Of a DNA stretch of 64,000 bases, positions 593 through 51,775 are shown piece by piece (the first letter of the stretch is position 1; each line of letters begins with the position of its first letter). The notes under the pieces were generated by a model, which saw nothing but the letters and a program-made list of their open reading frames with translations, was not told the DNA's origin and did not search any database. Origin of the DNA: Coffea arabica. Taxonomy: Eukaryota > Streptophyta > Magnoliopsida > Gentianales > Rubiaceae. The stretch is from assembly GCF_036785885.1 (NCBI RefSeq), contig NC_092324.1:31361001-31425000 (forward strand). Direction: 5' to 3'. Both the position numbers and the translations under genes were made by a program.

Positions 593-2410
593 TGATAAGT
601 GACTAATTTACGTAATAATTATATGACATTTTATATTATTTTTAGTCACTTTGGTTATATTATTGGAAGAATATGAATCATTTTGGCTATAATTGGTGAA
701 TAAATGTTTTTAAGTGATTAAATGAGGTTTTTATCACTTTTTACTTGGATTTTGTGTATTTTGACAGTTTTGACACATTTTCGTATTTCGGCTATAACTT
801 GAGTTACAATGATCGGATTGGGATGATTCTTGAACCCATTTGAAGATAAGAGATAGATCTACAACTTTGGTGAAGACATCTAAATCCAGTTTGAAGGTTT
901 TCCAGGTCAAAATGCCGAATTACAATAGCAAATTTCTACTGGTCGAAGCTGGAACAGGGCAATGAGCAGGCAAGGGTATTTCAGTCATATCTCAGCCTAC
1001 ACAGATCCAAATGAGGTGATTCTTAATGCATTAGAAAGATAACTCAAAAGGCTACAACTTTCGTGTTTTAGACATGAGCTGGTTCAGCCTCTAACATCAA
1101 GAAAAGATTGGTTGAAGTTGGGCCAAAAACAGAGCAAGTGATCCACACTCGGATCCACTATTCATCCGAACCCTCGGTTGTTTCTGGGTTAGTGGAACCG
1201 AGCTCGGATCCATACGGATCCGAGGTACTGTAGCAGATCGGATCACTGGTCAGAAAAGGCTGCTCTGTACGCGTAAAACTCAATTTCACCTCCACCAACT
1301 CACATTGGATGCTAGACATGTGAGAAACATTCCCAGCTGTAAAAGGGAGATGTAATCCTCATTTCTTGACCACCTTTCATCATAAAAGAGCAAAATTCAT
1401 TGCAAAAAAGGAGATTGGAGTCCATAGCAGAAAATAGGGGGAAATATACGGGAGAAGCTTGAAGAGTGCAGAAATGTAGTTCTTCCATTTCCTTAGTGTA
1501 GGATAGTGTAGTAAGTGTAGTTCATCCATTCTTGTATAATGGCTAGATTAGGATGAAAATGGAGATGAAGAAAGAGAAGTTGAAGCTCAAGTGACATGGG
1601 TTATCTCTTCTCCAACTCTTTATCTTTTGTATTGGATTCTTAAATATAGTTAATATGCAAGTTCTGGAATTTATGTCTATTATGTGTTTCTAAAGTTTAT
1701 GCCTTGGGTTTGGTTGAACTTTCTATGATTGTTAGTGTTTATCATTTGGCTATTTAACTGCTATGATTTGAGCAAGTTATTTAGCACTTTGACTCTTTAA
1801 ATCATGATTAATCTGGTACCATTAATTGTGATTATCTAAGGTGTTATTTCTGCAATGAAAATTGAGATTTAACATTAGTTCAAGAAGTACTAAACATAAG
1901 GAGTACACTCACGAAAGTAGAGGTGCACCTATGTGGTTTTTAGTGATTCATTTCATGTAATTTCACTGAAGAAATGAACTTGTAGCTAATTTCATAACCA
2001 TGAGAATAGGTATGGATTAGTTATAAGTATAATTGATTCACTACGAAAGTAGGATTCAAATGCATAAGGAAATTACACCATAACTAGCCTAGATGTAGTA
2101 ATTAATGATCCAAATATAGCACTTGCATGAGTAGTTAGGGATACCACAACCCAAGGAGCTTTTATTTGCTATTTTCTTGCATAATTTCAGTAGGTTTTAA
2201 TTTGTTATAATTCATTGATAGTCTAAATAATAGAGAAGCTTAAGTAGTACCGGTAATTGCAATCTTCCTTGTGGGATCGACCCTTAATACCCTATACTAG
2301 CTCACGATTCGTATACTTGCGATAAATCGCGTGTGGGGTATTTAGGAGTTTATAAATGTAAAACTTGATTAGGATGAGCTTAATTGTATATGTATACTCC
2401 GCGCACGTCA
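593..2410 (+). repeat. LTR of element A (shared between tandem copies)
   Basis: 1818 bp, TG...CA ends, matching 5664-7481. About 550-660 bp in, it carries GGATCC/CGGATCCGAG motifs, including a perfect hairpin at 1203-1224 (stem CTCGGATCC, loop ATAC). Two diverged copies of a roughly 45-bp segment (near 783 and 977; TATTTCGGCTATAAC and TATTTCAGTCATATC) lie in its first half, a duplication also seen in the LTRs of B and D. Its second half, from about 1437, is closely similar to the second half of the D LTR. Promoter and polyadenylation sites are expected here for the family but I could not place them. Confidence 0.92.
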
Positions 2411-2434: not shown

Positions 2435-2593
2435 AGATTTGGCAATATCGGTGTGAAGAGTAACTTTATTAGTTTAGACATATTATTAGTTATACTGTGA
2501 ATGTTATTTTCTGTGTTTTATATGTGTATGTGTTTTATCACCTATTCTTCTTACTAATTTTGCTCTTAAGTTGTTTAAAAGCAATTTTAGGTG

Positions 2594-3676
2594 ATGAGAA
2601 GGGTAGGACAATTTGGAGGACAATGCTTGAGAAATGGAAGATTGGTAATGGATGGTTACCAAGTGCAAAGCTCCTTTAATAGAGGTAACCAAGAATTTAC
2701 TGAATGTATGTCTTTTGAAGATGGTTTAAGGTGCTTAAAGGCAAAATTTGATGTAATTAAGTTACAAGTTCAAATGGACACCATGATGCATGAAATTGAG
2801 CAAAGGAGGAATGTTAATGCTTTTAATTCTTATCATGTGATTTGTGACTTGTGTGGAGGTTATCATGCTACTAATACATGTATGCAAGCACAAAATGTGG
2901 ATTATTATGATAAATTAGAGCATTACAATCCTTGTTTTGATCAATACAGTGCTAATTGGAGCAATTCTCCTGCTTATGGTTGGCAAAATCAATGTGCATA
3001 TAGTGATTATCCGTATTTTTATGATTACCAACCTGAATGTGTCCAATATGAATCAAAATCATCTTGGGAGTTGGCAATTGAAATGGTAGCTAATGATTCT
3101 AAGCCACCTTGGGAGTTAGCTATAGAAAAATTAGCTAATGTGACTTCTGACCGTTTTGATAGGATTGAGGAAAGAATAGATGAATTAGCTTCTCACTTTG
3201 GTAGAATACATGAGCAATTGAATGCATTGTGTGAAGTTATTTCCTCTAATAATTTGCAAAATGATCCTAGCATGAATGGTAGGAATGTTGTATGTGAAAA
3301 TGGATTGCATTTGGATGAAAATGATGAATTTCAATGGTGTTTTAATGAGCAAATATCCATTTCACATGATAATATCTTTGGAACTAACTTTGAGCCTCAA
3401 GAGGTGAGTTTTAATGACTCATTTTTCACCCCTCTTGAGGAGTGCAGTGAAAGTATAGGTTCTAAAGGTATTCCTGCTCAAGATACTCTCATGACATTTC
3501 CTTTGGTAAGTTCTCAAGTGGTGCATATTCAAGGTAATATCTATGAAACACTTGGAATAGGTAAGTCACTTCCATTTCTCACATCATTAGTTCATGTGGC
3601 TTTTTCTATTAAGTCACCTTACAATGATCCACCAAGGCCTAAAATGGTGGATTATTCGTTAACTAAGCCTCCTTGA
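2594..3676 (+). CDS. Gag-derived protein of element A (nucleocapsid-like remnant)
   Basis: An uninterrupted frame of about 360 codons; I use the ATG at 2594 because the same ATG (39704) starts the homologous frame in D. It contains a variant zinc knuckle C-x2-C-x3-H-x4-C (CDLCGGYHATNTC, near residue 90), then a tandem duplication of a short motif (WELAIEMVAN, WELAIEKLAN), then a predicted helical stretch (RFDRIEERIDELASHFGRI) that matches the region after the zinc knuckle in the Gag of B and C (RFERVEGRLDQL). The capsid-like N-terminal domain of normal Gag and the protease are missing. It ends in VDYSLTKPP. The function is not known. An RNA-binding helper role is inference from the zinc knuckle. 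Confidence 0.75.
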   Translation: MRRVGQFGGQCLRNGRLVMDGYQVQSSFNRGNQEFTECMSFEDGLRCLKAKFDVIKLQVQMDTMMHEIEQRRNVNAFNSYHVICDLCGGYHATNTCMQAQNVDYYDKLEHYNPCFDQYSANWSNSPAYGWQNQCAYSDYPYFYDYQPECVQYESKSSWELAIEMVANDSKPPWELAIEKLANVTSDRFDRIEERIDELASHFGRIHEQLNALCEVISSNNLQNDPSMNGRNVVCENGLHLDENDEFQWCFNEQISISHDNIFGTNFEPQEVSFNDSFFTPLEECSESIGSKGIPAQDTLMTFPLVSSQVVHIQGNIYETLGIGKSLPFLTSLVHVAFSIKSPYNDPPRPKMVDYSLTKPP

Positions 3677-3739: not shown

Positions 3740-4068
3740 GCTTGTTTAAGTTGGTGTTACTTTGGAGTGATTTTATGTTTAAAGTATGAGTTTGAGTTAT
3801 TTTGTTATTTTTTCATTTGTAGGTTTTGGAAAAAGATGCAAAAGTGACCAAATGAGGTGAAAAAGGCGAAGTTTGATCAAAGATCTCAATACCTCAAATT
3901 CAGTAATTGTGATTTTTGATGCATTAAAGAGGTTTAGAATGCATGTTTAGATCATTTTACATGTGCGTGAACGATTTATTTTGACATAGAAATGATCTAG
4001 GGTGTATTTTGAAGAATTGGGGTCAAACTGAAAATTGCAAAAATTCTGCAATAAGTGCAGATTCAATG

Positions 4069-4226
4069 GATCCAAGGCCTCGGATCCATATGGATCCAAG
4101 GCCTCGGATCCACTTCTGCAATTAGAAAAAAATTCGAACTTCTTGATCCGAGCTCACTCACAATGAACCGACCTCGGATCCTTTCAAAAACGACCTCGGA
4201 TCCTTTTAAAAACGAAGGCTTGGATC
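4069..4226 (+). repeat. GGATCC palindrome cluster (element A)
   Basis: About 160 bp with repeated GGATCC, CTCGGATCC and AAGGCCT motifs, including a perfect 16-bp palindrome GGATCCATATGGATCC. It occupies the position held by the CGCG clusters in B, C and D: the flanking bases (GATTGGGGT... then TTCTGCA) are homologous, but the repeated word is different. Confidence 0.8.
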
Positions 4227-5663: not shown

Positions 5664-7481
5664 TGATAAGTGACTAATTTACGTAATAATTATATGACAT
5701 TTTATATTATTTTTAGTCACTTTGGTTATATTATTGGAAGAATATAAATCATTTTGGCTATAATTGGTGAATAAATGTTTTTAAGTGATTAAATGAGGTT
5801 TTTATCACTTTTTACTTGGATTTTGTGTATTTTGACAGTTTTGACACATTTTCGTATTTCGGCTATAACTTGAGTTACAATGATCGGATTGGGATGATTC
5901 TTGAACCCATTTGAAGATAAGAGATAGATCTACAACTTTGGTGAAGACATCTAAATCCAGTTTGAAGGTTTTCCAGGTCAAAATGCCGAATTACAATAGC
6001 AAATTTCTACTGGTCGAAGCTGGAACAGGGCAATGAGCAGGCAAGGGTATTTCAGTCATATCTCAGCCTACACAGATCCAAATGAGGTGATTCTTAATGC
6101 ATTAGAAAGATAACTCAAAAGGCTAAAACTTTCATGTTTTAGACATGAGCTGGTTCAGCCCCTAACATCAAGAAAAGATTGGTTGAAGTTGGGCCAAAAA
6201 CAGAGCAAGTGATCCACACTCGGATCCACTATTCATCCGAACCCTTGGTTGTTTCTGGGTTAGTGGAACCGAGCTCGGATCCATACGGATCCGAGGTACT
6301 GTAGCAGATCGGATCACTGGTCAGAAAAGGCTGCTCTGTACGCGTAAAACTCAATTTCACCTCCACCAACTCACATTGGATGCTAGACATGTGAGAAACA
6401 TTCCCAGCTGTAAAAGGGAGATGTAATCCTCATTTCTTGACCACCTTTCATCATAAAAGAGCAAAATTCATTGCAAAAAAGGAGATTGGAGTCCATAGCA
6501 GAAAATAGGGGGAAATATACGGGAGAAGCTTGAAGAGTGCAGAAATGTAGTTCTTCCATTTCCTTAGTGTAGGATAGTGTAGTAAGTGTAGTTCATCCAT
6601 TCTTGTATAATGGCTAGATTAGGATGAAAATGGAGATGAAGAAAGAGAAGTTGAAGCTCAAGTGACATGGGTTATCTCTTCTCCAACTCTTTATCTTTTG
6701 TATTGGATTCTTAAATATAGTTAATATGCAAGTTCTGGAATTTATGTCTATTATGTGTTTCTAAAGTTTATGCCTTGGGTTTGGTTGAACTTTCTATGAT
6801 TGTTAGTGTTTATCATTTGGCTATTTAACTGCTATGATTTGAGCAAGTTATTTAGCACTTTGACTCTTTAAATCATGATTAATCTGGTACCATTAATTGT
6901 GATTATCTAAGGTGTTATTTCTGCAATGAAAATTGAGATTTAACATTAGTTCAAGAAGTACTAAACATAAGGAGTACACTCACGAAAGTAGAGGTGCACC
7001 TATGTGGTTTTTAGTGATTCATTTCATGTAATTTCACTGAAGAAATGAACTTGTAGCTAATTTCATAACCATGAGAATAGGTATGGATTAGTTATAAGTA
7101 TAATTGATTCACTACGAAAGTAGGATTCAAATGCATAAGGAAATTACACCATAACTAGCCTAGATGTAGTAATTAATGATCCAAATATAGCACTTGCATG
7201 AGTAGTTAGGGATACCACAACCCAAGGAGCTTTTATTTGCTATTTTCTTGCATAATTTCAGTAGGTTTTAATTTGTTATAATTCATTGATAGTCTAAATA
7301 ATAGAGAAGCTTAAGTAGTACCGGTAATTGCAATCTTCCTTGTGGGATCGACCCTTAATACCCTATACTAGCTCACGATTCGTATACTTGCGATAAATCG
7401 CGTGTGGGGTATTTAGGAGTTTATAAATGTAAAACTTGATTAGGATGAGCTTAATTGTATATGTATACTCCGCGCACGTCA
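5664..7481 (+). repeat. 3' LTR of element A
   Basis: 1818 bp, same length and ends as 593-2410, with only scattered substitutions (for example GAATATAAATC against GAATATGAATC, and ACCCTTGG against ACCCTCGG). The hairpin CTCGGATCC/GGATCCGAG is kept. The bases after it (GCTAT, 7482-7486) should be the right copy of the target duplication of the whole tandem array. Confidence 0.93.
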
Positions 7482-7870: not shown

Positions 7871-9772
7871 TGATAAGAGTTTATTTTACGTATTTTTAAG
7901 TGCATTTTATTAGTTAATTTTGAGTTGATTATTTAGTTTTATAATTAAAATAAAGAGGTTTTTGGTAAAATTATATATTTTTGGTAAAAGTGGATAATAT
8001 TGCATTTTTAGTGATTTTACTGGTAAAAACTTCATTTTTATGCAGGAATGATGATTCAATCACCAATGGATGTCAAATGAGGTGAAAAGTAGATAATTGG
8101 TGATGAATTCAAGTGGTAACAAGAAGAATGAAGAGAAAAACGTTCAAGTGAGGAAATGCAATACAAGTCAGTTTTGACACTCTTCGGTATTTCGACCATA
8201 TCTAGAGCTACACTTATCGGATTGAGGTGATCTTTATACCATTTTAAATCTAAGAAAGAGATCTACAATTCTTATGAAGACATCGAAATCCAATTCTGCC
8301 ATTTTCAAGGACAAAAAGTCAGAATACAGAAGCTGCATTCTGTGGTCGGAAGTTAAAACAGAGGTTTGACCAGGTGATAGTATTTCGATCATATCTTAGG
8401 CTACAAAGCTCCGATTTGGATGATTCTAGAAGCTAACTCAAAGGGCTACAACTTTTGTGTTTTGCACAAAAGCCAGTTCGGTCTTCATCATAGAGAAAAT
8501 CGCAGTTGAAATAAGGCCAGAGTGAAAACGCGAGTATACAAAACGCGAGTTTATGCCGCGTTTTGTGTAGGCGCGTTTTGTAGCCGAAAATCTGCAATTT
8601 GCTCAGCCATTCCTCTTGTGTTCAGACTACTTTCCAGCTATAAGTTGCAAGGGAATTCGGTGCACATGCTTCAGAAGACCAAAGGACAAGAAAGGGGGCT
8701 TATTTTCAAGTCAAAAATATTGGTTATTGACTATGCTAACAAAGTGGGGATTTGGGAATCAAAGATTAGAATTTGACTTGGAAAAATGGAGCCTTTGAGT
8801 AGTTTTTATGCAGAGACATTGAGGGAGGTCTGGACATCCATACGTAGCCAGATTGTCTGATAGCAAACACTCTCTAGCTAGTAAATTTTGCAGGAACACT
8901 TGGAGGTTTCATCTTGTACTCACCTAGTACAAGACTTAGGAGATTCTTGGAGAGTTTCACCATTACTTGGCTAAGCTTTTCTTTATCTTTCTTGTACTTT
9001 TGAACTGAGATGCTTTCCATTAATGAAGTTATGAGTGTTTAATCATTCATGAGTAGCTAATTTCCTTTATCTAGGGAGTAGATGAAGCTTATGGCCAAGT
9101 GATATGAAGTGATTGTGATTTATACTTGTTATATCTTGTATTAACTTATCTACTTGTGTATGTTGGATTACTTGTTGTTATTTGATCACCAATAGCAGGT
9201 TTATAGTTGTTTTTACTCATTGAGAAATGGTAAAAATAATGGAATGACATAAGTAGAGCTTGAGTAGTATATTCATGAAAATAGAAATACATTCAAGTGG
9301 ATGAAATCTACATTTCCTATATGCACAAAACAGATTTAGTATTTACCAAGAGATTAGGAAAAACTAATATGTTTTAACCCATTATTATCATGAGAATGTG
9401 ATTTTGGTATTGTTGGAAATGAATCCTTGGTTAAACAAGAGTAGTAACAAGTGTTAAATTCATTCGTTTTAGATCTTTTGTGTTATATGTGGAATCTACA
9501 TCCCTAGATCTTAATATTTAGTGAATTCTACTCCTATTGTGAAATTGCATTTATCTAGTTAAGAATTTTTGTAGTTGAATTAAATTCTGAATTTTCTGCT
9601 CAAATTTATTGTGAGTCTAAACAATAGAGTAAATTAGTATCTAATAATTGTTTTAATTGCTCCTCGTAGGATCGACCCGATACATACCCAATATTACGAT
9701 TTTGGCCTGTATACTTGCAGTAAAACGGGTATAATTCGGAATTAAACTTGCACTTAAAGTAAAAACCTGTCA
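7871..9772 (+). repeat. 5' LTR of element B
   Basis: 1902 bp, TGATAAGAG...TGTCA. It contains a hairpin at 8538-8566 (ACAAAACGCG / CGCGTTTTGT, 9-base loop) inside a small group of CGCG motifs. It keeps both copies of an internal duplication around TATTTCGACCATATC (about 8187) and TATTTCGATCATATC (about 8380); in C the sequence between the two copies has been lost. Confidence 0.93.
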
Positions 9773-15341: not shown

Positions 15342-15674
15342 GTTTATGTTATATGTGTTAATTTGGTGTGATTTTGTGGTTTGAATAAGTGTTTTAGTTA
15401 AGTTGTTATTTTTGTGTTATAGGGTTGACAATTGGAAGCAAGAATGACCATTTAAGGTAAAAAAGGCGAACTTTGATCAATCCACTCAACCCCTTGATTT
15501 GCGTTAAAGGTGTATTTGATCCGTCGAAAAGGGGTAAAATGCATGTTGTTATCATTTTACATGTGCGTACATTGATAAATTTTGCAAACAAATGATCCAT
15601 GATGCATTTTGAGTGATTGGGGTACCAATGGTAATTTTTCAAAGTTCATTTTTTGCAAAAAAATTGCAGAATAA

Positions 15675-16031
15675 AACGCGCCTGGCATAAAAACGCGCTT
15701 CTTTGTCACGTTTTCATCAAAACGCGTTCCTAATTCTGCAACCACAATGAAGAAAACGCGCTTAAAAACACGACATAGAGTCGCGTTTCTCAGATAAATC
15801 GCGTTTTCAAGCCTGGATCATAATCCAAAAACGCGACTTCAAATACGCGACTCAAAGTCGCGTTTTCAAACACAGCCGCGTTTTTACTCCTGCAAGATTT
15901 GTGCATAAAACGCGACTTTAGAAACGCGAGTTGAAGGCGCGTTTCTAGTCGCGTTTTCTGTGTCCCAATATAGGCTTCAGAAACGCGATTTCAGGTTCAT
16001 TTCTTCCACTCTTCTTAATTTTCCAGGCGCG
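15675..16031 (+). repeat. CGCG motif cluster (element B)
   Basis: About 16 CGCG words, mostly as AAACGCGACT or AGTCGCGTTT in either orientation, in 357 bp of otherwise AT-rich DNA. They form potential hairpins, for example ACGCGACT / AGTCGCGT with loop CAA at 15845-15863. Several words are damaged to CACG or similar, as expected for decayed CpG sites. Confidence 0.85.
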
Positions 16032-16962
16032 TTTTTCTTCTTCTCTTCTACCGAACCCACAAATCTTCAATTTTGTTCCATAATCTTGCTAGAAAACATC
16101 AACCCAACACCTTTTGAGCTTCATACAACCTTTTTAACTGATTAAAATCCAAGAAAAACACCTCAAATTCAGTTTTTGAAGGATTGAAGGTTAGGGTTCT
16201 TCAACTCTAATTTCTTCAGTTGGAGGTCAATTGGAGGTTGTTTCATAGGGTTTTTTGCATTTTTAGCATCACCAAACATCCTTCTACGTGATTGAGGTAA
16301 GTTTCTTCATCAAATCTTTTGATTTTAGAAAGTCATATTTTTTATCCTGAGCTATCTGACATCTTTTAATGTCGAAAATTTGATGATGTATTTGACTATT
16401 TTTGAATTTATTCATGCTTATTGAGATTGTTTAAGTATGTTTATGAGTTTAAATGTAGCAATTTGTTGGTCATTATTGCTTTATAAATTCATAATTGCTA
16501 TATTTGAAGGAAATCGGAAAATGAAGTTAGGATGTTTTTGAGCCATTGGTGATGTTTAATTATGGTTAAGAATGGTTAGTTGATGATGTTTGAGCATGTG
16601 CATTGTGTATAGTGAGTAATTTGGTTGATTTGGTGAGTTAATTGGTTTAATTTTTGCTTAAACATGATTATAGCTAAAAGCATATTTTTATTGTTAAGTT
16701 TAAATAGTTATAATCATAATTGTTGTTAATTTCACTGATTGGGTTATAATTATTCAATATCTTGTTTCAATTGGTGATTTTGAGCAATTTTTGGCATAAA
16801 TTATGGCTCTTCTTGATTCGGTCTTTTACATTAGTTATTAGACGAATTATCATTTGCAAGGACACATTAGAGATTATTTGGATCATTTTAGGATATTCAT
16901 TGCCAAATTGTGCATTGTGTCTAAATACATGTGGTTAATTGCAACATTTTCTTTTAAGTACT
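16032..16962 (+). other. Non-coding leader of ORF3 (element B)
   Basis: AT-rich and alignable with C 46373-47276 by eye. It ends in CATTTTCTTTTAAG, a pyrimidine-rich stretch immediately before ORF3 that could be a 3' splice site. The open frame at 15960-16145 is shared with C (46301-46486) but lies inside the CGCG cluster and looks like chance. Confidence 0.55.
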
Positions 16963-17964
16963 ATGCCAAGGGGAAGAAGAGCGGTACTTTCATCCTCTAG
17001 TAGTGAGGAGAGGGAGGTTAATGAGGAGATGGAGGTGACTGAGGAGGAGAATTCACCTTCTCCTCCACCAGTTAACCGACAGCCTGGTAAGGGCACCTCC
17101 CATGGAGCGGGTAGATCGGCATTTGACAGTGTTAGGTTCAATACTCGCAGGAATCAAGAGTGGCATGAGGCGCGTGCTAATTTGGAGTTTTTGTTTGAGA
17201 TGCACGTCAGTCCACCAGTTGAGATGATGTACAACATCTCAGATGCTTTTGCTCAGCTAGGATGGGCTCCGATTCTCACCCTTCCAAACTATTACTACCC
17301 CAACTTGGTGCGCGAGTTTTACGCCAACATTGAGAGTAAGGCGCGCCATAGTGGAGAAATGGTTGAGTCCTGGGTGCGTGGAAGACGAATCACCTTGTCA
17401 CGTCAGGATTTGGCCGCTATTTTGGGGTGTATGGATGACGGCCGTCCAATAGATTTGAAGAAGGAGTTTGTTCCCCCGAATAGGAGGTGGGATCCCTCGC
17501 TGGCCATGGCTAGGTTTGGTCTTGAGTACCAACCTTTTCGCTCTACAAGGAAGGAGACCATTTTGGCGAATGTCTTCGAATCTCGTCATCGGCTTATCAT
17601 TTACATGATGGCTCACAATGTCATCCCAAAGAAGACGGAGCACACGGAAGTTCGCAAGAGCAATATTTACTTCCTTAATTACATGTTCCACAACCGAACT
17701 TCCCCGTATGCTCGAATTTCATTGCCGAACATCATCATCAGCCACATTAGATCTACGGCGAGGCGTAAGACAACTTCTTTCAAATTATCATTTCCTCGTC
17801 TATTGACTTTAATCTTCCCCCGTTTTGAGGTTCGCTTGGAAGGCATGCGGCGGGAGTATGTTCCACCACGGGCTGAGATGACTATCACTACTCTCCGCCG
17901 GCTTGGTATTGGTACGGGGGACATTCCACGCCCTGTTCAGTTTGTGTTTTCTCCGCCGGCTTAG
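16963..17964 (+). pseudogene. ORF3 of element B, C-terminally truncated
   Basis: Same protein as ORF3 of C (47277-48482): MPRGRRAVLSSSSSEE start, acidic N-terminus, then a globular region with REFYANIESKARHSGE, WVRGRRITLSRQDL and LGCMDDGRP. This central region resembles the plant transposon protein domain often found downstream of pol in Athila-type elements; its function is unknown and it is not a recognisable envelope. The frame is open, but after RPVQ it runs through 20 bp of filler and stops inside the LTR remnant (TAG 17962-17964), losing about 75 C-terminal residues present in C. Confidence 0.8.
17941..17960 (+). other. Filler DNA at a deletion junction in element B
   Basis: Twenty bases between the ORF3 sequence (ending GTTCAG) and the LTR remnant that match neither partner at this point. 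The last part, CTCCGCCGGCTT, is a copy of 17893-17904, about 58 bp upstream. This is the signature of a double-strand break repaired with templated filler. Confidence 0.75.
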
Positions 17965-18099
17965 TATCTAATAATTGTTTTAATTGCTCCTCGTGGGATC
18001 GACCCGATACATATCCAATATTACGATTTTGGCCTGTATACTTGCAGTAAAACGGGTATAATTCGGAATTAAACTTGCACTTAAAGTAAAAACCCGTCA
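17961..18099 (+). repeat. 3' LTR remnant of element B (139 bp)
   Basis: Matches the last 139 bp of the 5' LTR (9634-9772) at equal length with three substitutions seen, ending CGTCA just before the TSD TTTCC. The first roughly 1760 bp of this LTR, the polypurine tract and the end of ORF3 are deleted. Confidence 0.93.
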
Positions 18100-30061: not shown

Positions 30062-33000
30062 CTAACCTCCTTCATTTATCCAACGCACACCCGGCACCCC
30101 ACGTGAGTCAAGGAGAATAGCAGCCCTAACCATCGCCGACAGCTGGTGGTCATGCTCATAAACCTTAGCGCCAGTTGCCCCAACCGCTGCTAACCTGTCT
30201 GCAGGTACGTTGGCCTCACGGAAAATATGCGAAATGGAAGCCGAGAAGTCCTTCAGGAGACCTCTAACTTTCCTCAAGCTGTTACACAGAGGCCACTTAG
30301 CAATCGCCCCAGACACAACCAACTGTACCAAAGCCTTGGAGTCCACCTCTACCAACGAAGGACGCATCCCCTTTTTTAAACACAACTGCAGCCCAAACAG
30401 TAATGCCATACACTCCGCCCCTAACACATCCTGTTCCCCGAACTCCTTGTAGAAAGCAAAAATCAATTTCCCCTGACCATCACGCAGCAGACCTCCACCC
30501 GTGGCCCGACCTTGAACCACACTGGCGTCCGAGTTAAATTTCAGCACACCAAGTGGCGGTCTGACCCAGGCAATCGCACACGGGGCCCTTCTCCTAGAAG
30601 GAGACTTGATCCATTGTACCAACTCACAATCCACATCCCCCACGAAATGCGACCGACGAAGCTTATTTGCCCTCCCAAGCTGCTCCCAAAAATAATCCAC
30701 ATCACGGATTATCTTGTCAACCTCCCACCGCACTCCCTGACAGCGCTCCTGGTTCCTAGCTACCCAAAGAAACCAGCACACCACTATTGGCATAAAAACC
30801 CGAATATGATTTTTCGCCGCTGAAGCTGAAGTGAAGTACCAAGAGATAAAAACCGACGCCATACTCGAGCAATTACGCAACTGAAAACCAAACCGGGAAG
30901 AGATTCTCCTCCAAACTTGCGAAGCTACCGGGCCCGACAGAAAAACATGCAAGAGCGTCTCCTCCTCCCGGTAACAACACCCACATCTCGAGGGAAAAGA
31001 CAACCCCCGAGACCTTAACACCACATCCAAAGGGAGGAAATTACGCACTAACCTCCAAGCAAAAAATGACATTTTTGCTGGCAAAACCGACGGCCACAGT
31101 AAGGAGTCGACCAAGGAGTGATGCTTCCGTTGTCGAAGCAACTCCCACGCCGACTTAACCGAGAAAGTCCCCGAAGGCGAAAGCAACCAAACCAACCTGT
31201 CCTCCTGAGACAGCTCAAAGGGTATGTCCTTGATTGCACGGATGACGAAACCCGGAACCCACTTGGCAAGACGAACTTCATCCCAGCCTTCCTCAGTAAT
31301 AAACTCCGCCACCAGAAAATGAGGCCTCACCGCTCGACCCACAACCACCTCTAACGGGTCATGAAGAACCCATCTATCCTTCCAAAAATCTACCAGGCCT
31401 TTACCTAAACACTTAATGTTCGGTTCAACCAAAGTACGTATCGCCTCCAGACGCCGCCAAGTAGCTGAAGGCCGAACTGATGAAACTTCCGATGGATGGC
31501 TCCCACTACTGTATTTGGCGTGCATGAACTCCGCCCACTTTGAATCTCCACTCCTGAAACGCCACCAAAGTTTAGCCGCAAACGCCCTAGCCATGTCCTT
31601 AAAAGACCTAAACCCCAGACCCCCTTCCTCAAGTGGAAAGCACAACTTGTCCCAGGATGACCAATGTATGCGCCTCTCTCCCATTCGATCCCACAGAAAG
31701 GCGTTGCAAATGACCCCCAAACGTGTCAGCACCGCCTTTGGAGGATTAACCACCTGAAGTAAGTACATAGGCAGCGACGCCAAGACATGCCTCGCTAAGA
31801 CCAGCTTACCCCCAAAAGAGAGCAGCTTAGTACTCCAATGGCCAAGGTGAGCCTGCATTTTAGCCACAATCCCATCAAACAGCACATTACGCCGCCGCCC
31901 CTTATAAATAGGGGCACCTAGATAAGTGAACGGGAAAAATTGCCTGTGAAATCCTAGGACCCTAGTCACCATCTGCTCCTGCCCCGAAGTAGCCCCCGAA
32001 GATAAAAAGAATGAACTCTTGTCGACATTCACCCTCTAGCCTGATGCCTCTTGATATTCTGCTAAAAAAGCCTTGATTGCGTTCAGACACTCCTCTGAAC
32101 ATCTTGTAAAGACAAGCATGTCATCCGCGAAGGCTAGGTATGGCACCTGGGTCCCGGCTGAAACAAAATACCTGCCCGGTTGCCTCCCTAAAAGGTGATG
32201 CAACCCACGGCCTAAAAATTCTGCAACTAACACAAAAAGGCCAGGGGAGACCGGGTACCCCTGCCTAACACCCTGTGAAGACTTAAAAAATCCAGCAGCC
32301 TCACCATTCACCAAAACTGAAAACCAATTATTGGACACCAGACGAAAGACTATATCAACCACATGTTCCGCAAAACCAAAATGCCGAAGTATAAACAACA
32401 GAAATGGCCACTCTACCCTGTCATACGCCTTTTCCATATCCAATTTTAACATGAGGTTCGGGTGACTCAACCGCCTGTCTAAATCAACCACCAGCTCCTG
32501 CGTGAGAAGGATGTTGTCCGTTATCCCCCGTCCAGGTACAAAACCTGTTTGCCATGGTGAAACTAAGGCAGGTAGGACTCTCCCCAACCGATTAGCCACC
32601 ATCTTAGAGATAATTTTTGAACAAGTGTTGCAAAGACTAATAGGCCGAAAGTCCTTCCAGCGCATGGCACCTGCAAGCTTAGGCAGTAGAAGAATAGAAG
32701 TACTAGTAAAACTCCTAGGCAAGCGCATACCCTGGAAAAAAGCCTGAACCGCCTCCAGTAGATCCGCCTTGATAATATCCCAGCAAGCTTGGTAAAAACC
32801 TGCCCCAAACCCATCTGGTCCAGGAGCACTATCAGCATCCAACCCATGCACCACCTCCTGTAACTCAGCCATGCCTGGAACAGCAGATAGCATATCATTA
32901 TCCGCAGCAGACAGCTTAGGCATCGTAAAGGGAATGTCAGGCGACTGCCACCCATGCTGTTCCGAAGTGAACAAAGAGGACACGAACTCCACTGCAGACC

Positions 33001-34165
33001 TCCTGATATCCTGAATATCCTCCAACCATGGGCCTGCCGGATCCTTAATGCGAGCCACAAAATTGACATTTCGGCGCTGACGGTAACGAGAGTGGAAATA
33101 AGCCGAATTAGCATCCCCAACCTGTAACCATTTGATGCCCGCCTTCTGTCTCCAGTACTCACATTCCACTGCCAAGCTCCTTGCATAAACCGCCTTTGCC
33201 TCCTCCAACGCTGCCCTGGAAACAGAACCTCGCCCATTGTCAAACTCCTCCTCACGTTGTTTCATAATTGCCTCAGCCTCCTTCACCTTGCTAAAAATGT
33301 TTCCGAAAACCTGGACGTTCCATACTTGCAGCCCACCCTTCACCGCCCGTAATTTATTATAAAACCTCGTCATACCCTCACCCTCCGCCGGCTTCTCCCA
33401 ACTCTTCTGCACCACATCCCTGAAACCTGTGTGATGCCGCCAAATGTTTAGAAATTTGAATGACCGTTTGCTGGGATTCCCATTCTGACAACAAATCAGC
33501 AGCGGAGCATGATCCGAACGTCCCCTGGCCAAATGTGAGACATGCGAGAGGTCATACCCATCCGCCCACTCCCGGTTCATTAAGGCCCTATCCAAACGCT
33601 GCCACATCCTCCCATTCGTCCATGTAAATTCAGCGCCATCAAAAGGGACCTCTGCCAAACCACAATTACCAATTGACTCATTGAATTCTACCATATTTGT
33701 TTCATTAGCCGGGGCTCCTCCCACACGCTCCTCTCTACAAGAGATTACATTAAAATCCCCTGCCAGTAACCAAGGCCCCTGCACTTCGCCCGCTAAACTT
33801 TCCATTGCTGACCACAGCTCGCGTCGCCCCACCCTCGAACACCGAGCATAGACTGCCGAGAACTGCACCGAACATCCAGAAGAGAAAGCGATGTTCATGT
33901 GAAGCAGTTGGTCCGCCATTTCCCTGAAGCTCAATGACATCTCATTAAACCACAAAACCCACACCTTGTTATTCAATGCTCCCAAAGCCCTATCAAACCC
34001 AAGAAACCGACGTACCACCTCAAGTTGTGGGGAATCCGACAATGGTTCCAGGAGAACCAGCAACCGTATCTTATTAGTTTTGCATATCTTATTTAAATAT
34101 CGCAGTGAATCTTTACGTGAAGCCCCACGAATATTCCACACAACCAACTTAATGGGATTTAACAT
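30062..34165 (-). pseudogene. LINE ORF2: endonuclease, reverse transcriptase, RNase H
   Basis: Starts at ATG 34165 and ends TAG at 30062, about 1367 codons, with a single in-frame stop (TAG, plus-strand 32036-32038) after EYQEASG. An AP-type endonuclease comes first (VVWNIRGASRKDSLRYL, GDFNVISC, GRSDHAPLLI), then RT (KLDMEKAYDRVEW, GVRQGYPVSPGLF, catalytic FADDMLVF shortly before the stop), a zinc-binding domain of RT-associated type (CGCCYREEETLLHVF), and a C-terminal RNase H with all four acidic residues visible (FNSDASV, GAECMALL, EVDSKALV, VPADRLA). The stop is explained by one C-to-T change in CAG. Without it the product would be complete, so this is a recently inactivated copy. Confidence 0.93.
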
Positions 34166-35734
34166 GAGACCTCAAAGAATAATGAGTTTGGGGTTGGGAT
34201 TGAAACTTACCCTGATTGGAAAATGCTTTAGCCTGCCGACCACCCTTGTGTCTAGCTCCTAACGGACCACGCTCCGCGGACACTGGCCGCTCCAACCCTT
34301 CCAAACTCTCCGTTGTCGGAGCCGCGGACAGCCTTTGATGCAACACTCTCTGAAATTGTTTTAATTGCTCCCACGGCACTGCCTCCCCGGTATGTCCCCG
34401 TCAGAACATTGTCGTCTATGTCTCTGCTTAGCATTCCTACCCTGACACGCCGAACTGGATGGAAGGCGCTCGACATCCTGAAACTCCATATCTGATAGAG
34501 ATTGTAGGACAGCAAAGTTATTCCCGCACTCCACCCTCTCCCAGCCATGCACCTCCTCCGACGTCACCCTCGACGGTGACTCAGTTGAAGCATCAACTCC
34601 GGCCGAATTTGTCAAAATTCCAGCAAACCCAGCACCAGCAAGCGCATCAACAGCTACCGACGGAATAGTAGGCTCCACCAAAATAGGGGCCACCTCCGGA
34701 TCCTGTGGTTCCAACGCTGGGTTAGGCGCCGACCGATGCATTGCAGTTTCCATCCCCTCCAGTTCAGAGTGTGCAGTCCTCCCAGGGCCAAAATTAACGA
34801 CAAGCTTCCCCTCACTGCTTTGACCAGCATCCACGGCACCCTCAGGATGCAGATGACACTCCCCACTCTGTAGGAGCCCTAAACCAGGCCCATTGGTGCC
34901 ACTGATACCCTTAGGCCAGTAAACCTCCTTGGACTTTCCTTTCGCCGTAACCATCCTGTTTACAGGTTTGAGATCTGGATGTTGCCTAAAACATTCTCCG
35001 TCGTCATGTCCAAAACGAATACAAAATCCACAAAACTTCGGCCAAGATTCATATTCCACATCCTGCCAGAACCCCTCCTGGTCCTCCCCAATCCAGATGC
35101 GATGAGGGGGTTGCTTTGACACGTCCATCTCAATCAGAACCCTCGCAACCGAAGGCCGTTTGAGCTTCACTGTCGCCGAGTCAATCTTCAGACATCGACC
35201 CAGCAAACCTGCTAGTTTGGCAATATACACCGAATTAAATAACGGCAAAGGGAGCGCTGGCATGGAAACCCACACAGGCGCGAAAGTCGAATCCTGATGG
35301 GCTTTGAAGTCCAATGTCCATTTTGATACCAACATCTGTGCGCCCTTCACGAACCAAGAACGGCGCACGAACAGCCGTGTAAAATCCTCCTCCGTTGATG
35401 GCCTGATCAGAACGTGATTCAAATCCAGAAGGCCGACATCACAATCTCCCTTGAGACCCAGAGAAACAAAAAATCCCCGAATGACCTCCATTGGAGGCCG
35501 ACGAAACGGGAACCGTCCAACCAATGCATTTCTGAATGGTGTCGAAAGCAGGTGCAGATCATTCTGAGATAACAGCAGCGCTGGTTCTCCTCGATGTGTC
35601 GCACAACGCCCCAGATCTGGAACAGTTGGCTCCAACCGACATGCACCCGAAAGCACGTCGGCAAAGGACTTGGACGCTGCTGCTCCTCCAGATGTGCCCC
35701 CTGTGGCCGGCGGTGGCCACGGAGGACCCTCCAT
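34149..35734 (-). pseudogene. LINE ORF1 (RNA-binding, DUF4283-like), frameshifted near its end
   Basis: ATG at 35734. The first roughly 430 codons follow LINE 2 ORF1 closely: ADVLSGA, HRGEPALLLSQND, LVGRFPFRRPPMEVIRGFF, RPSVARVLIEMDVS, and a zinc knuckle CGFCIRFGHDDGECFRQH. The frame stops at 34361 while the expected C-terminal motif (HYSLRS, matching RYALRS of LINE 2) lies in another frame that ends at 34149, so a frameshift occurred around 34380-34450. ORF1 proteins of this type bind the LINE RNA. The restored end would overlap the ORF2 start by 17 nt, as in LINE 2. Confidence 0.85.
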
Positions 35735-37564: not shown

Positions 37565-39510
37565 TGACAAGGGTTTATTTTACGTATTTTTAGTGTGTTT
37601 TATTAGTTAATTTTGGTTTGATTATTTAGTTTTATAACTAAAATAACTAAGGTTTTGGTAAAAAACTACATTTTATGTTAAAGTGGCTAAATATTGCATT
37701 TTATGGATTTTTATGGGAAAAACTTCATATTTTGTAGGTTTAATGATTCAATCATCAAATGAAGTGCATTGAGAAGATATTTGGATGATTGAAGATGGAT
37801 TAAAGTGAGGAAAATAAAATATGAAGTGTAAAAGGAAGAAATGCAATTTGAGGACAAAAATCAAGAAAAGTCAGCTTTGACAACTCAGACATATTTTCGT
37901 ATTTTGACTATATCAGGAGCTACAATGATCGGATCAAGGTGATCTTGGTACCATTTTGAAGCTAAGAGATATATCTACATTTGGTATGAAGACATCAAAG
38001 TCCAATTCATCCGTTTTCATAGTCCAAAAGTTGAAATACCGAAATTCAACTCAGCTGTCCAAAGTGGAAAACAGAGTTCCGACCAGTGTTTAGTATTTTG
38101 ATCATATCTCAGTCTACAAAGCTCCGATTTGGATGATTCTTGAAGCATTGGAAAGCTAACTCAAAGATCTACAACTTTGGTGTTTTGCACAAAAGCCAGT
38201 TCGGCCTGCATCATGGAGAAAATGGCAGTTGAAGTAAGGACAAAGTGAAAACGCGAGTGCACAAAACGCGAGTTGTAGACGCGTTTTGTAAAGGCGCGTT
38301 TTCTGGCCGAAATTCTGCAATTTGCTCAGTCAATTCTCTTGTGTTCATACCACTTTCCAGCTATAAGTTGCAAGAGAATTCGGTGCACATGCTTCAGAAG
38401 ACAAAAGGGCAGACAAGGTGGCTTATTTTCAAGTCAAAAACATTTGTTATTGACTATCCTAACAAAGTTGAGATTTGGGAATCAAAATGTGGAATTTGAC
38501 TTGGAAAAATGGAGCTCTTAAGCAGTTTATATGCAGAGACATTTTGGGTGGTCTAAAAAGGGGGAAATATACGGGAGAAGCTTGGAAGTGCAGAAATGTA
38601 GTTTTTCCATTCTCTTAGTATTAGATTAGTGTAGTATAGTTTAGCTAGTTAGTTCATCCACTCTTGTATATTATCTAGATTAGGATGAAAATGGAGGATG
38701 AAGAAGGCAAGGAAGAAAGCTCATGTGACAAGGGTTGTATTCCTTCCAAACTCTTTATCTTTTGTATTTGATTCCAAGTTTAGTTAATATACAAGTTCTG
38801 GATTTTGTGTTCATTATGTGTTTCTAAAGTTTATGCCTTGGGTTTGGTTGAACTTTCTATGATTGTTAGTGTTTATCATTTGGCTATTTAACTGCTATGT
38901 TTTGAGCAAGTTATTTAGCACTTTGGCTCTTTAAATCATGATTAATCTGGTACCATTAATTCTGATTATCTAAGGTGTTATTTCTGCAATGAAAATTGAG
39001 ATTTAACATTAGTTCAAGAAGTGCTAAACATAGGGAGTACACTCACGAAAGTAGAGGTGCACCTATGTGGTTTTTAGTGATTCATTTCATGTAATTTCAC
39101 TGAAGAAATGAACTTGTAGCTAATTTCATAACCATGAGAATAGGTATGGATTAGTTATAAGTATAATTGATTCACTACGAAAGTAGGATTCAAATGCATA
39201 AGGAAATTACACCATAATTAGCCTAGATGTAGTAATTAATGATCCAAATATAGCACTTGCATGAGTAGTTAGGGATACCACAACCTAAGGAGCTTTCATT
39301 TGTTATTTTGTATAATTTCAGTAGGTTAAATTTGTTATAATTCATTGATAGTCTAAATAATAGAGAAACTTTAGTAATACCGGTAATTGTTCACTCTTCC
39401 CTGTGGGATCGACCCGATATATACCCTAAACTACTAGTTGATCTGTATACTTGCAGTGAACGGGTGTAATTCGGTATTTTTTAGCTTGCACGTATGTAAA
39501 ATACCCGTCA
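37565..39510 (+). repeat. 5' LTR of element D (chimeric)
   Basis: TGACAAGGG...CCGTCA, 1946 bp. Up to about 38554 it follows the B/C LTR, including the CGCG hairpin at 38261-38289 (ACAAAACGCG / CGCGTTTTGT). From about 38560 (GGGGGAAATATACGGG) it follows the A LTR to near its end. The last about 100 bp (GATCTGTATACTTGCAGTGAACGGG) again resembles B/C. Confidence 0.92.
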
Positions 39511-40817: not shown

Positions 40818-41170
40818 GTTTGTTTAAGTTTATGTTATTTTGGGGTGATTTTATGTTTAAAGTATATGTTTGAGTTATTTTTGTTATTTTTCATTTGTAG
40901 GTATTGGAAATGGAAGCAAAAGTGACCAAATGAGGTGAAAAAAGCGAAATTTGATCAAGGAACTCAACCCCTCAATTTGAGTAATTGTTGTTTTTGATTT
41001 GTTAGAAGGGGTTAAAATGCATATTTTGATCATTTTACATGTGCATGCATTGAGAATTTTAGCAAACAAATGATCTATGATGCATTTCGTGTGATTGGGG
41101 TACAAATGGTAATTTTTCAAAATTGGCTTTCTGCAAAAATTTCGCAGAAGAAAACGCACTTGGGCTGAAA
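40818..41170 (+). other. Non-coding internal region of element D, left part
   Basis: AT-rich. It contains TTTTTCATTTGTAG at 40887-40900, a splice-acceptor-like stretch shared with A, and the left edge of the CGCG cluster (from about 41152). No gene seen; the minus-strand frame at 40884-41210 runs into the LTR of C and is not real. Confidence 0.55.
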
Positions 41171-41175
41171 ACGCG

Positions 41176-42901
41176 TGATAAGAGTTTATTTTACGTATTT
41201 TTAAGTGCATTTTATTAGTTAATTTTGAGTTGATTATTTAGTTTTATAATTAAAATAAAGAGGTTTTTGGTAAAATTATATATTTTTGGTAAAAGTGGAT
41301 AATATTGCATTTCTATTGATTTTAATGGTAAAAACTTCATTTTTATGCAGGAATGATGATTCAATCACCAAAGGATGTCAAATGAGGTAAAAAAATAGAG
41401 ATTTGGTGATAAATTCAAGTGGCAACAAGAAGAATGAAGTGAAAAACGTTCAAGTGAGGAAATGCAATACAAGTCAGTTTTGACACTCTTCAGTATTTCG
41501 ATCATATCTCAGGCTACAAAGCTCCGATTTGGATGATTCTTGAAGCATTGGAAAGCTAACTCAAAGGGATACAACTTTTGTGTTTTGCACAAAAGCTAGT
41601 TCGGCCTTTATGATAGAGAAAATCGCAGATGAAGTAAGGCCAAAGTGAATACGCGAGTACACAAAACGTGACTTGTAACCGCGTTTTGTGTAGGCGCGTT
41701 TTATAGCCGAAATTCTGCAATTTGACTCAGCCAATTCTCTTGTGTTCATACCACTTTCCAGCTATAAGATGCAAGGGAATTCGGTGCACATGCTTCAGAA
41801 GACAAAAGGGCAAGAAAAGTGGCTTATTTTCAAGTCAAAAATATTGGTTTTTGACTATGCTAACAAAGTGGAGATTTGGGAATCAAAGGATAGAATTTGA
41901 CTTGGAAAAATGGAGCTTTTGAGTAGTTTTTATGCAGAGATAGAGGGAGAGGTCTGGACAACCATTCGTAGCTTAGCTTCTTACAGAAAAACATATTCTC
42001 TCTACCTAGGACTTGCAAGGGGCAATTGGGATTTCATCTTGTAATCATCTAAGTTCAAGACAAAGGAGATTTTTGGAAGGCTTCACCATATCTTGGCTAA
42101 GACTTTCTTTACTCTGTTTGTATTTGTAATTCATGATGATTTACATTAATGAAGTTATGAGTGTTTCATCATTCATGAGTAACTAATTTCCTTTATCTAG
42201 GGAGTAGATGAAGCTTATGGCCAAATGATATGAAGTGATTGTGATTTATGCTTGTTATGTCTTGTATTAACTTATCTACTTGTGTATGTTGGATTACTTG
42301 TTGTTGCTTGATCACCAATAGCAGGTTTATAGTTGTTTTTACTCATTGAGAAATGGTAAAAATAATGGAATGACATAAGTAGAGCTTGAGTAGTATATTC
42401 ATGAGAATAGAAATACATTCAAGTGGATGAAATCTGCATTTCATGTGTGAATAAGAACAGATTTAGTATTTACCAAGAGATTAGGAAAAACTAATCTGTT
42501 TTAACCCATTATTATCATGAGAATGTGATTTTGGTATTTCTGGAAATGAATCCTTGGTTAAACAAGAGCAGTAACAAGTGTTGAATTAATTCATTTTAGA
42601 TCTTTTGTGTCATAAGTGGAATCTACATCCCTAAATCTTAATATTTAGTGAATTCTACTCCTATTGTGAAATTGCATTTATCTATTTAAGAATTTTTGTA
42701 GTTGAATTAAAATCTGAAGTTTCTGCTCAAATTAATTGTAAGTCTAAATAATAGAGTAAATTAGTATCTAATAATTGTTTTAAATTGCTCCTCGTGGGAT
42801 CGACCCGATACACATCTCGTACTACAATTGCGACCTGTATACTTGCAGTCCAACGGGTGTAAATTCGGAATTAAACTTGCACTTAAAGTAAAAACCCGTC
42901 A
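41176..42901 (+). repeat. 5' LTR of element C
   Basis: TGATAAGAG...CCGTCA. Like the B LTR, but lacking about 180 bp between the two TATTTCGAYCATATC copies; both C LTRs share this loss. Hairpin at 41659-41691: ACACAAAACGTG / CGCGTTTTGTGT, a 12-bp stem if one G-U pair is counted. Confidence 0.93.
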
Positions 42902-45682: not shown

Positions 45683-46016
45683 ATTTAGGTTATATTTGTT
45701 AACTTGGTGTGATTTTGTGGTTTGAATCAATGTTTTAGCTAAATTGTTGTTTTTGTAATGTAGGGTTGGCAATTGAAGGCAAGGATGACCAATTGAGTAC
45801 AAAAAAGGCGAACTTTGATCAAACAACTCAACCCCTCGATTTGCGTTAAAGGTGTTTTTGATTCATTATAAAGGGGTAAAATGCATGTTTTTAATGTTTT
45901 ACATTTGTTCCAGTAATTAAAATTGGCAAACAAATGATCTATGATGAATTCTGAGTCATTGGGGTACCTTTTGTAATTTTTCAAAAGTTGAAATTCTGCT
46001 AAAAATCGAAGCAGAA

Positions 46017-46375
46017 AACGCGTTTTCAAAGAAAACGCGACTACAAGTCGCGTTTCTCAGAATCGCGTTTTCAATTCTGCAACTGCAGAAAAGAAAACGC
46101 GCCTTCAAAACGCGACCCAAAGTCGCGTTTTAATGGAAATCGCGTTTTCAAGCCTGGATCAAGACTCAAAAACGCGACTTATGAAACGCGACTCTAAGTC
46201 GCGTTTTCAAACACAGTCGCGTTTTAAGTGCTGCAAGATTTGGGAAGAAAACGCGATTTTAGAAACGCGAGTTGAAGGCGCGTTTTGAGTCGCGTTTTGT
46301 GTGTCTGAATATAGCCTTCAGAAACGCGATTTCAGCTTCATTTTTTCCTCTCTTTTTAATTTTTCAGGCGCGTTT
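46017..46375 (+). repeat. CGCG motif cluster (element C)
   Basis: About 18 CGCG words in 359 bp. Two perfect 10-bp hairpins AAACGCGACT / AGTCGCGTTT with 3-base loops at 46033-46055 (loop ACA) and 46184-46206 (loop CTA). Less eroded than in B. Confidence 0.87.
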
Positions 46376-47276
46376 TTCTTCTTCTCTTCTACCCACCTCA
46401 CAAATCTTCATTTTTACTCCATAATCTTGCTAGAAATCATCACCCCAACACCTTTTGAGCTTCATACAACCTTTTTAACCGATTAAAATTCAAGAAAAAC
46501 ACTTAAAATCAGGTTTTTGAAGCATTGAAGGTTAGGGTTCTTAAACTCCAATTTCTTCAATTGGAGGTCAATTGGAGGTTGTTTCATAGGGCTTTTTGCA
46601 TTTTTAGCATCACCAAACATCCTTCTACGTGATTGAGGTAAGTTTCTTCATCAAATCTTTTGATTTTAGAAGTTCATATTTTTTATCCTGAGCTATCTGA
46701 CATCTTTTAATTTCGAAAATTTGATGAGGTTCATGGCTATTTTTGATTTTATTCATGATTATTATGATTGTTTAAGCATGTTTAAATGTTTAAATGTAGC
46801 AATTTATTGGTTTTCAAGTACTTTAAAATTCACAATTGCTATATTTAGATGAAATTGGAAAAAGGAACTAGGATGTTTTTGAGCCATTGGTGATGTTAAA
46901 TTATGGTTAAAAAGGGTTAGTTGATGATGTTTAAGCATGTGCATTGTGTATAGTGAGTAATTTGGTTGATTTGGTGAGTTAGTTAGTTTAATTTTTGCCT
47001 AAACATGATTATAGCTAAAAGCATATTATTATTGTTAATTCTAAATAGTTATAATCATAATTGCTCCTATTTTCACTAATTGAATTATAATTGATACATA
47101 TCTTGTGTAATTTGGTGATTTTGGGCAACTTTAGGCAGAAAATATGTCTTGTACGATCATTGAATGATTAGAACTTAAGCAATTGTATTTGAGGTTATTT
47201 GGATTAATGTTGAACTTTTGTTGCCAAAAAAATGAGTTGTAGTACATGTGAATAATTGAAATATTTTTTAGGTACT
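46376..47276 (+). other. Non-coding leader of ORF3 (element C)
   Basis: AT-rich, alignable with B 16032-16962. It ends with AATATTTTTTAG just before GGTACTATG, a strong splice-acceptor-like stretch, which fits expression of ORF3 from a spliced transcript. Confidence 0.6.
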
Positions 47277-49779: not shown

Positions 49780-51505
49780 TGATAAGAGTTTATTTTACGT
49801 ATTTTTAAGTGCATTTTATTAGTTAATTTTGAGTTGATTATTTAGTTTTATAATTAAAATAAAGAGGTTTTTGGTAAAATTATATATTTTTGGTAAAAGT
49901 GGATAATATTGCATTTCTATTGATTTTAATGGTAAAAACTTCATTTTTATGCAGGAATGATGATTCAATCACCAAAGGATGTCAAATGAGGTAAAAAAAT
50001 AGAGATTTGGTGATAAATTCAAGTGGCAACAAGAAGAATGAAGTGAAAAACGTTCAAGTGAGGAAATGCAATACAAGTCAGTTTTGACACTCTTCAGTAT
50101 TTCGATCATATCTCAGGCTACAAAGCTCCGATTTGGATGATTCTTGAAGCATTGGAAAGCTAACTCAAAGGGCTACAACTTTTGTGTTTTGCACAAAAGC
50201 TAGTTCGGCCTTTATGATAGAGAAAATCGCAGATGAAGTAAGGCCAAAGTGAATACGCGAGTACACAAAACGTGACTTGTAACCGCGTTTTGTGTAGGCG
50301 CGTTTTATAGCCGAAATTCTGCAATTTGACTCAGCCAATTCTCTTGTGTTCATACCACTTTCCAGCTATAAGATGCAAGGGAATTCGGTGCACATGCTTC
50401 AGAAGACAAAAGGGCAAGAAAAGTGGCTTATTTTCAAGTCAAAAATATTGGTTTTTGACTATGCTAACAAAGTGGAGATTTGGGAATCAAAGGATAGAAT
50501 TTGACTTGGAAAAATGGAGCTTTTGAGTAGTTTTTATGCAGAGATAGAGGGAGAGGTCTGGACAACCATTCGTAGCTTAGCTTCTTACAGAAAAACATAT
50601 TCTCTCTACCTAGGACTTGCAAGGGGCAATTGGGATTTCATCTTGTAATCATCTAAGTTCAAGACAAAGGAGATTTTTGGAAGGCTTCACCATATCTTGG
50701 CTAAGACTTTCTTTACTCTGTTTGTATTTGTAATTCATGATGATTTACATTAATGAAGTTATGAGTGTTTCATCATTCATGAGTAGCTAATTTCCTTTAT
50801 CTAGGGAGTAGATGAAGCTTATGGCCAAATGATATGAAGTGATTGTGATTTATGCTTGTTATGTCTTGTATTAACTTATCTACTTGTGTATGTTGGATTA
50901 CTTGTTGTTGCTTGATCACCAATAGCAGGTTTATAGTTGTTTTTACTCATTGAGAAATGGTAAAAATAATGGAATGACATAAGTAGAGCTTGAGTAGTAT
51001 ATTCATGAGAATAGAAATACATTCAAGTGGATGAAATCTGCATTTCATGTGTGAATAAGAACAGATTTAGTATTTACCAAGAGATTAGGAAAAACTAATC
51101 TGTTTTAACCCATTATTATCATGAGAATGTGATTTTGGTATTTCTGGAAATGAATCCTTGGTTAAACAAGAGCAGTAACAAGTGTTGAATTAATTCATTT
51201 TAGATCTTTTGTGTCATAAGTGGAATCTACATCCCTAGATCTTAATATTTAGTGAATTCTACTCCTATTGTGAAATTGCATTTATCTATTTAAGAATTTT
51301 TGTAGTTGAATTAAAATCTGAAGTTTCTGCTCAAATTAATTGTAAGTCTAAATAATAGAGTAAATTAGTATCTAATAATTGTTTTAAATTGCTCCTCGTG
51401 GGATCGACCCGATACACATCTCGTACTACAATTGCGACCTGTATACTTGCAGTCCAACGGGTGTAAATTCGGAATTAAACTTGCACTTAAAGTAAAAACC
51501 CGTCA
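49780..51505 (+). repeat. 3' LTR of element C
   Basis: 1726 bp, same ends as 41176-42901. Differences noticed: GGGCTAC for GGGATAC (about 50170), GAGTAGCT for GAGTAACT, and CCTAGATC for CCTAAATC. Followed by the TSD ACGCG. Confidence 0.95.
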
Positions 51506-51775
51506 ACGCGCCTTATAATCGCGTTTTCCATAATCGCGTTTTCAATTCTGCGCCTATACTGAAGAAAACGCGCCTCAAAACGCGACAGGAAGCCGCGTTT
51601 TCTACCAAGTCGCGTTTTCCAGCCTGATCAAAAATTGAAAACGCGCCTTCAAATACGCGACTCCAAGTCGCGTTTTATAACACAGTCGCGTTTTCGATCC
51701 TGCAAGATATGTGAAGAAACGCGACTTCACAAAACGCGGCTTGGTGGCGTGTTTTGATGAGTCGCGTTTTCGGAG
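51506..51775 (+). repeat. CGCG motif cluster (element D, right part)
   Basis: About 13 CGCG words; the left edge of the cluster is at 41152-41175, before element C. Hairpin ACGCGACT / AGTCGCGT with loop CCA at 51655-51673. Confidence 0.85.

Follow-up and report, generated by a model that had tools for sequence, protein, structure and literature searches.

The question raised by this locus is whether a short palindromic word, repeated in the LTR of a retrotransposon and again in its internal region, forms a pair between the two places and, if so, what reads it. The window, i.e., the entire 64,000-nucleotide stretch of Coffea arabica DNA that was analyzed, spans G000:C15:31361001-31425000 and carries four such elements, A to D (Table 1). 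An earlier note had assigned GGATCC to A and CGCG to B, C and D, and these words were indeed found at both places far above chance. GGATCC (the G word) occurs 20 times in the whole window compared to 10.6 expected, and nine times in one A unit, where 500 Markov sequences average 0.6 and never exceed 4. AAACGCG (the C word) occurs 64 times compared to 2.2 expected, with 9 in the largest shuffle, and only one stray copy in the window (29081) lies outside the LTRs and internal clusters of B, C and D. The three GGATCC copies of A's LTR are at 1151, 1206 and 1216, with those of the second LTR within 6222-6292; AAACGCG copies lie within 41680-41701 in the 5' LTR of D and at 41169-41175 plus 51520-51769 inside C. 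The observed/expected ratio of CpG, about 0.5 for whole LTRs, rises to about 1 in the arrays of A and to about 2 in the C-word arrays. The flanks proved homologous, as had been claimed, both upstream of the internal cluster (4/4 elements) and in the LTR region before the word.

Table 1. Elements, word arrays and ORFs in the window
Feature	Position	Strand	Related positions and remarks	Basis
A tandem-unit LTR	593..2410	+	other copy 5664-7481; repeated stretch 99.6% identical	self-comparison and reading
A LTR U3 G-word array (CTCGGATCC / GGATCCGAG)	1148..1224	+	matching site in next LTR 6219-6295	
A 361-aa ORF, stop to stop	2591..3676	+	zinc-knuckle-like stretch; same in B's gag	by eye
A internal G-word array, six GGATCC	4068..4203	+		
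B 5' LTR	7871-9772		3' LTR shortened to 17961-18099	self-comparison and reading
B LTR U3 C-word tetrad, ++--	8526..8578	+		
B internal C-word array	15674..16034	+		
B env-like ORF	16939..17964	+	PF20167; stops at truncated 3' LTR	
C LTRs	37565-39510 and 53202-55147			self-comparison and reading
C 5' LTR U3 C-word tetrad	38249..38301	+	3' LTR copy 53886-53938	
C internal C-word array, right part	51506..51771	+	left end ~41151-41175; split by D insertion	
D LTRs	41176-42901 and 49780-51505			self-comparison and reading
D 5' LTR U3 C-word tetrad	41649..41701	+	3' LTR copy 50253-50305	
D internal C-word array, repeated ++-- tetrads	46016..46375	+		
D env-like ORF, 401 aa	47277..48479	+	PF20167; predicted model resembles VANC21 (9lnj_A)	

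The ORFs of B matched, in Pfam, Retrotrans_gag, Asp_protease, RVT_1, RT_RNaseH and Integrase_H2C2, followed by PF20167 in the last ORF. RT, RNase H and then integrase is the Ty3/gypsy order, and the full series from gag to a PF20167 env-like ORF is that of Athila elements with an additional 3' ORF; on gene content, the window elements are probably Athila (Ty3/gypsy). D retains gag, protease and PF20167, with the pol part missing, and a Pfam search of A's 361-aa ORF gave no match. Self-comparison and reading placed A in a tandem of 5071-bp units, part of an array on contig C15 similar to the long arrays of LTR-internal units at G000:C1:41944655-42076744 and C1:1212124-1283228 (periods of ~5118 and 8888 bp). 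D sits inside the word cluster of C, with the target duplication ACGCG at 41171-41175 and 51506-51510, and at L068 a C-type cluster is interrupted by an A-type LTR; word clusters may be attractors of insertions. Pyrimidine-rich leader-like sequence adjoins the internal arrays on their 3' side (16020-16060 and 46370-46410 of the window; L021, L133 and L141). Long ORFs on the minus strand at 30062-34171 are, by eye, LINE-type reverse transcriptase-like.

The sequence chosen as an anchor, which lies upstream of the cluster, matches the 1.198-Gb genome exactly at 882 places; clusters were read at 70 of the first 100 (contigs C1-C3), and env-protein hits were added afterwards. Besides the C and G words, the anchor loci carry AATCCGGCC (P) and AAACGTGG (T). 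P appeared first in L021, whose LTR has P words at the place of A's G words, and long A-type elements have G then P inside and, with the order kept, G then P in the LTR. T forms the internal arrays of L023, L032 and L060. The "only two states" of the earlier note thus arose from looking at the window alone: genome-wide there are at least three words, many A-type relatives have G and P together, and a simple two-state code is ruled out by P and T. T, a CGTG word, looks as if the C word had undergone, throughout the whole array, a transition that keeps the palindrome; the LTRs of L023 and L060 retain CGCG, and in L032 the word is gone. P (AATCCGGCC..GGCCGGATT) is closely like the Citrus Sirevirus RM AATCCGGCTWRCCGGATT of an unrelated copia lineage (PMC2829016 Table 3). 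Several copies of an inverted-repeat-like word, AAATGCGAG / CTCGCATTT, lie downstream of P0007-type ORFs in L138, L139 and L140.

The words at the two sites were tabulated for 49 elements, with a word called at two or more copies. The LTR/internal states were G/G in 12, C/C in 11, GP/GP in 6, P/P in 5, GP/G in 3, P/GP and C/T in 2 each, and G/GP and GP/P in 1 each; six LTRs had no call (C inside in five, T in one). The two sites tend to go together: 41 of the 43 callable elements have a word in common at both sites (10,000 shuffles: mean 20.0, maximum 30) and 34 of the 43 have the identical state (mean 10.9, maximum 21), counts which are a description and not a probability, because the elements are related. 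One-site differences in the G/P family (L034, L029, L152, L153 and L159) make the pairing a tendency rather than a strict code, and they look like steps between paired states. Of the three GP/G rows, L108 and L112 have an internal stretch that stops before or at the P site; the stretches of these two and of L057, L065, L067 and L095 end 850 bp past the anchor, so they do not establish that P is absent there.

Two loci outside the table run against pairing: L009, whose 5' place is other sequence and whose 3' LTR (L115) has one P word, would score no LTR word with GP inside, and L094 has G in its LTR (L121) and, like L061, L074 and L075, no cluster within the stretch read. The remaining loci left out were L058 (inverted LTR hit, L088); L064, L068 and L076 (no assessable LTR); L099, L096-L098, L100-L107, L109, L111 and L113 (cluster read, LTR not fetched), where GGATCC also occurs in C clusters, twice in L106 and once in L100 and in L105; L110/L114 (no LTR found; a broken env ORF that by eye is P0007-like); L122 and L124 (LTR only); the array or neighbor mates L011-L018, L020, L030 and L035-L038; L117 and L118 (the second LTRs of L029 and L024, whose first LTRs have the same P state); L125-L136 and L137-L140 (stretch without LTR); L150 (a duplicate of L021); and L157 and L158 (LTR word not fetched).

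The half-sites of the C arrays are ordered ++--. Among 136 adjacent +- pairs in 29 internal C clusters, which like all clusters scored for spacing are related by descent, the spacer is 9 in 93, 8 in one and 13 in one, while 13 pairs overlap (-4 or -2) and the remaining 28 have spacers of 21 or more; in the LTRs it is 9 in 12 of 13 pairs and 8 in the other. For P, the +- spacer is 7 in 20 of 21 internal pairs (8 clusters) and in all 11 LTR pairs, and the internal -- spacer is 4 in 9 of 16. G is looser: 14 of its 18 internal +- pairs have a spacer of 4, as do 7 of the 13 in LTRs. A spacer of fixed length and changing sequence indicates that a protein touches the DNA. The earlier note had suggested that LTR and internal site could be tied by a paired recognition system, acting through RNA-RNA contact, packaging specificity or a DNA-binding protein. 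Such a system still fits best, short of a strict code, and the third option is favored because half-site spacing is fixed while spacers vary and because protein models resemble VANC21.

We consider it somewhat probable (roughly 0.55) that the arrays are operators read by a multimeric protein, likely the element's own PF20167 VANC-like protein, which shields the promoters of its family from silencing. First, the protein would read the operator clusters as double-stranded DNA, with one word per family (two in some), whose inverted half-sites keep the same fixed geometry in U3 and inside. Second, the cluster in the LTR U3 would lie upstream of the genomic-RNA promoter, and the other, located between pol and the env-like ORF and followed by the pyrimidine-rich leader-like sequence, would probably belong to an internal promoter of that ORF. 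Third, the most likely reader, the env-like PF20167 protein, is predicted to be a VANC-like DNA binder and would protect the promoters of its family from silencing. Elements such as A and C have no env-like ORF but retain their arrays, and the protein would have to be supplied to them in trans; several have putative operators for two words. The arrays, their words and spacing, the association of word and env type and the likeness of the models to VANC21 are observed, whereas DNA binding, promoter function and anti-silencing are what we infer for these arrays and this protein.

The word follows the env-like clade, three env clades having three words, an association that physical linkage could also produce. 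The VANC21-DNA structure is the best match of the predicted PF20167 models, so that their fold may be that of VANC. D's model resembles VANC21 (9lnj_A); a Foldseek search of the PDB with it found nothing at E<=0.001, and VANC21 was absent from the 22 rows listed. Searching PDB sequences with a profile produced no match. For the three env-like proteins, Pfam at E<=10 found PF20167 and did not list DUF1985; a weak poxvirus hit on one of them (E 0.042) was taken as chance. The sunflower Athila PF20167 ORF has an NLS and a nuclear prediction, with no function assigned in the passages of PMC11728184 that treat it. A tentative extension, to which we give slightly less than an even chance, is that Athila PF20167 is a VANC homologue acting as a nuclear, sequence-specific anti-silencing factor in private systems with swappable U3/env-promoter word cassettes; non-autonomous copies would then hedge via operators for two factors (G and P).

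The closest parallel is the VANC/VANDAL system of Arabidopsis Mu-like transposons, in which, according to extracts of PMC5735166 and PMC10398659, a short motif peculiar to each family is densely repeated in the non-coding DNA of the element itself, and motif and protein diverge together. The coffee arrays likewise consist of a short family-specific motif in non-coding element DNA, and motif and element-encoded protein diverge together, with the same caveat of linkage. However, the carriers are LTR retrotransposons, the protein hits PF20167 rather than DUF1985, and the half-sites stand in inverted ++-- tetrads, whereas VANC motifs share one orientation; the likeness is known from sequences and models.

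Host transcription factors could instead bind the words and drive the LTR and internal promoters, different families having recruited different factors and the env-like ORF being irrelevant. Any dimeric factor fits a fixed spacing, and the repeats of Sireviruses (RMs) were proposed to act in this way: in the sections of PMC2829016 that describe them, RMs are palindromic CpG-rich words located in the LTR and upstream of ENV, the same within an element and differing between elements. The coffee repeats share the palindromes, both places and the common word, and P resembles the Citrus RM. Compared to Sireviruses (Ty1/copia), however, the coffee backbone has Ty3/gypsy gene order, and the CGG-CCG core of 12/13 RMs (PMC2829016, same sections) fits P and not C or G; those sections describe no element-encoded reader and no swapping of cassettes between near-identical backbones. 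Host factors alone predict neither that the word follows the env-like clade nor the VANC21 match, and we regard them as an unlikely explanation.

The pairing might also reflect transfer and copying, with no functional link: a single template switch would move the contiguous cluster, env ORF, PPT and U3, and within this module the two arrays would owe their common word to the copying of one from the other. C is A-like from R to the cluster (87-91%, self-comparison) and D-like in part of the U3 (90% over 38089-38539; C and D agree at 78% in their internal clusters), as one switch predicts, and the LTR and internal G arrays of A-type elements have longer stretches around CTCGGATCCATAYGGATCC in common. 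Since the RNA runs directly from the cluster through the PPT into U3, a single switch near the cluster suffices for A versus C, and the joint change of both words need not mean two events there. However, L021 and A are 90.8% identical over the 1.8 kb between the sites and differ at both, although at the internal site of L021 a 3-kb segment (cluster plus env ORF) replaces A's 0.5 kb; furthermore, directly downstream of the differing U3 words, L148/L170 (G) match L055 (C) at 94-98% identity across 216 and 160 bp. One template switch does not easily account for either case, and fixed spacing under changing spacers suggests selection. A single linked transfer was thus rejected as the general explanation, retained for A versus C, and as a full account it is distinctly improbable.

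RNA-level hairpins, whether they serve dimerisation, packaging or primer placement or feed small-RNA silencing, are very improbable: inner pairs such as AAACGCGACT-AGTCGCGTTT are able to form stems, but the spacer stays 9 though several spacers are non-complementary, and the U3 copy is not present at the 5' end of element RNA. Maize Sirevirus palindromes have been linked to small RNAs (as cited in a passage of PMC10760457).

The passages on Athila in PMC11728184 mention no word arrays, two-site pairing or VANC-like model ('VANC' occurs 0 times in the text), and among the open-access papers listed on Athila, on VANC with retrotransposons and Athila (10 of 16) and on DUF1985 with retrotransposons, no title or abstract start reports such a paired-word system. 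Because the word goes with the type of env-like protein, whose predicted shape is VANC21-like, Athila-type elements of coffee may be running private anti-silencing systems. An ORF type is tied to a DNA word and its geometry, which makes the proposal directly testable in vitro. If true, sequence-specific anti-silencing would extend beyond Mu-like transposons, and in their swappable words the elements would preserve traces of an arms race with silencing.
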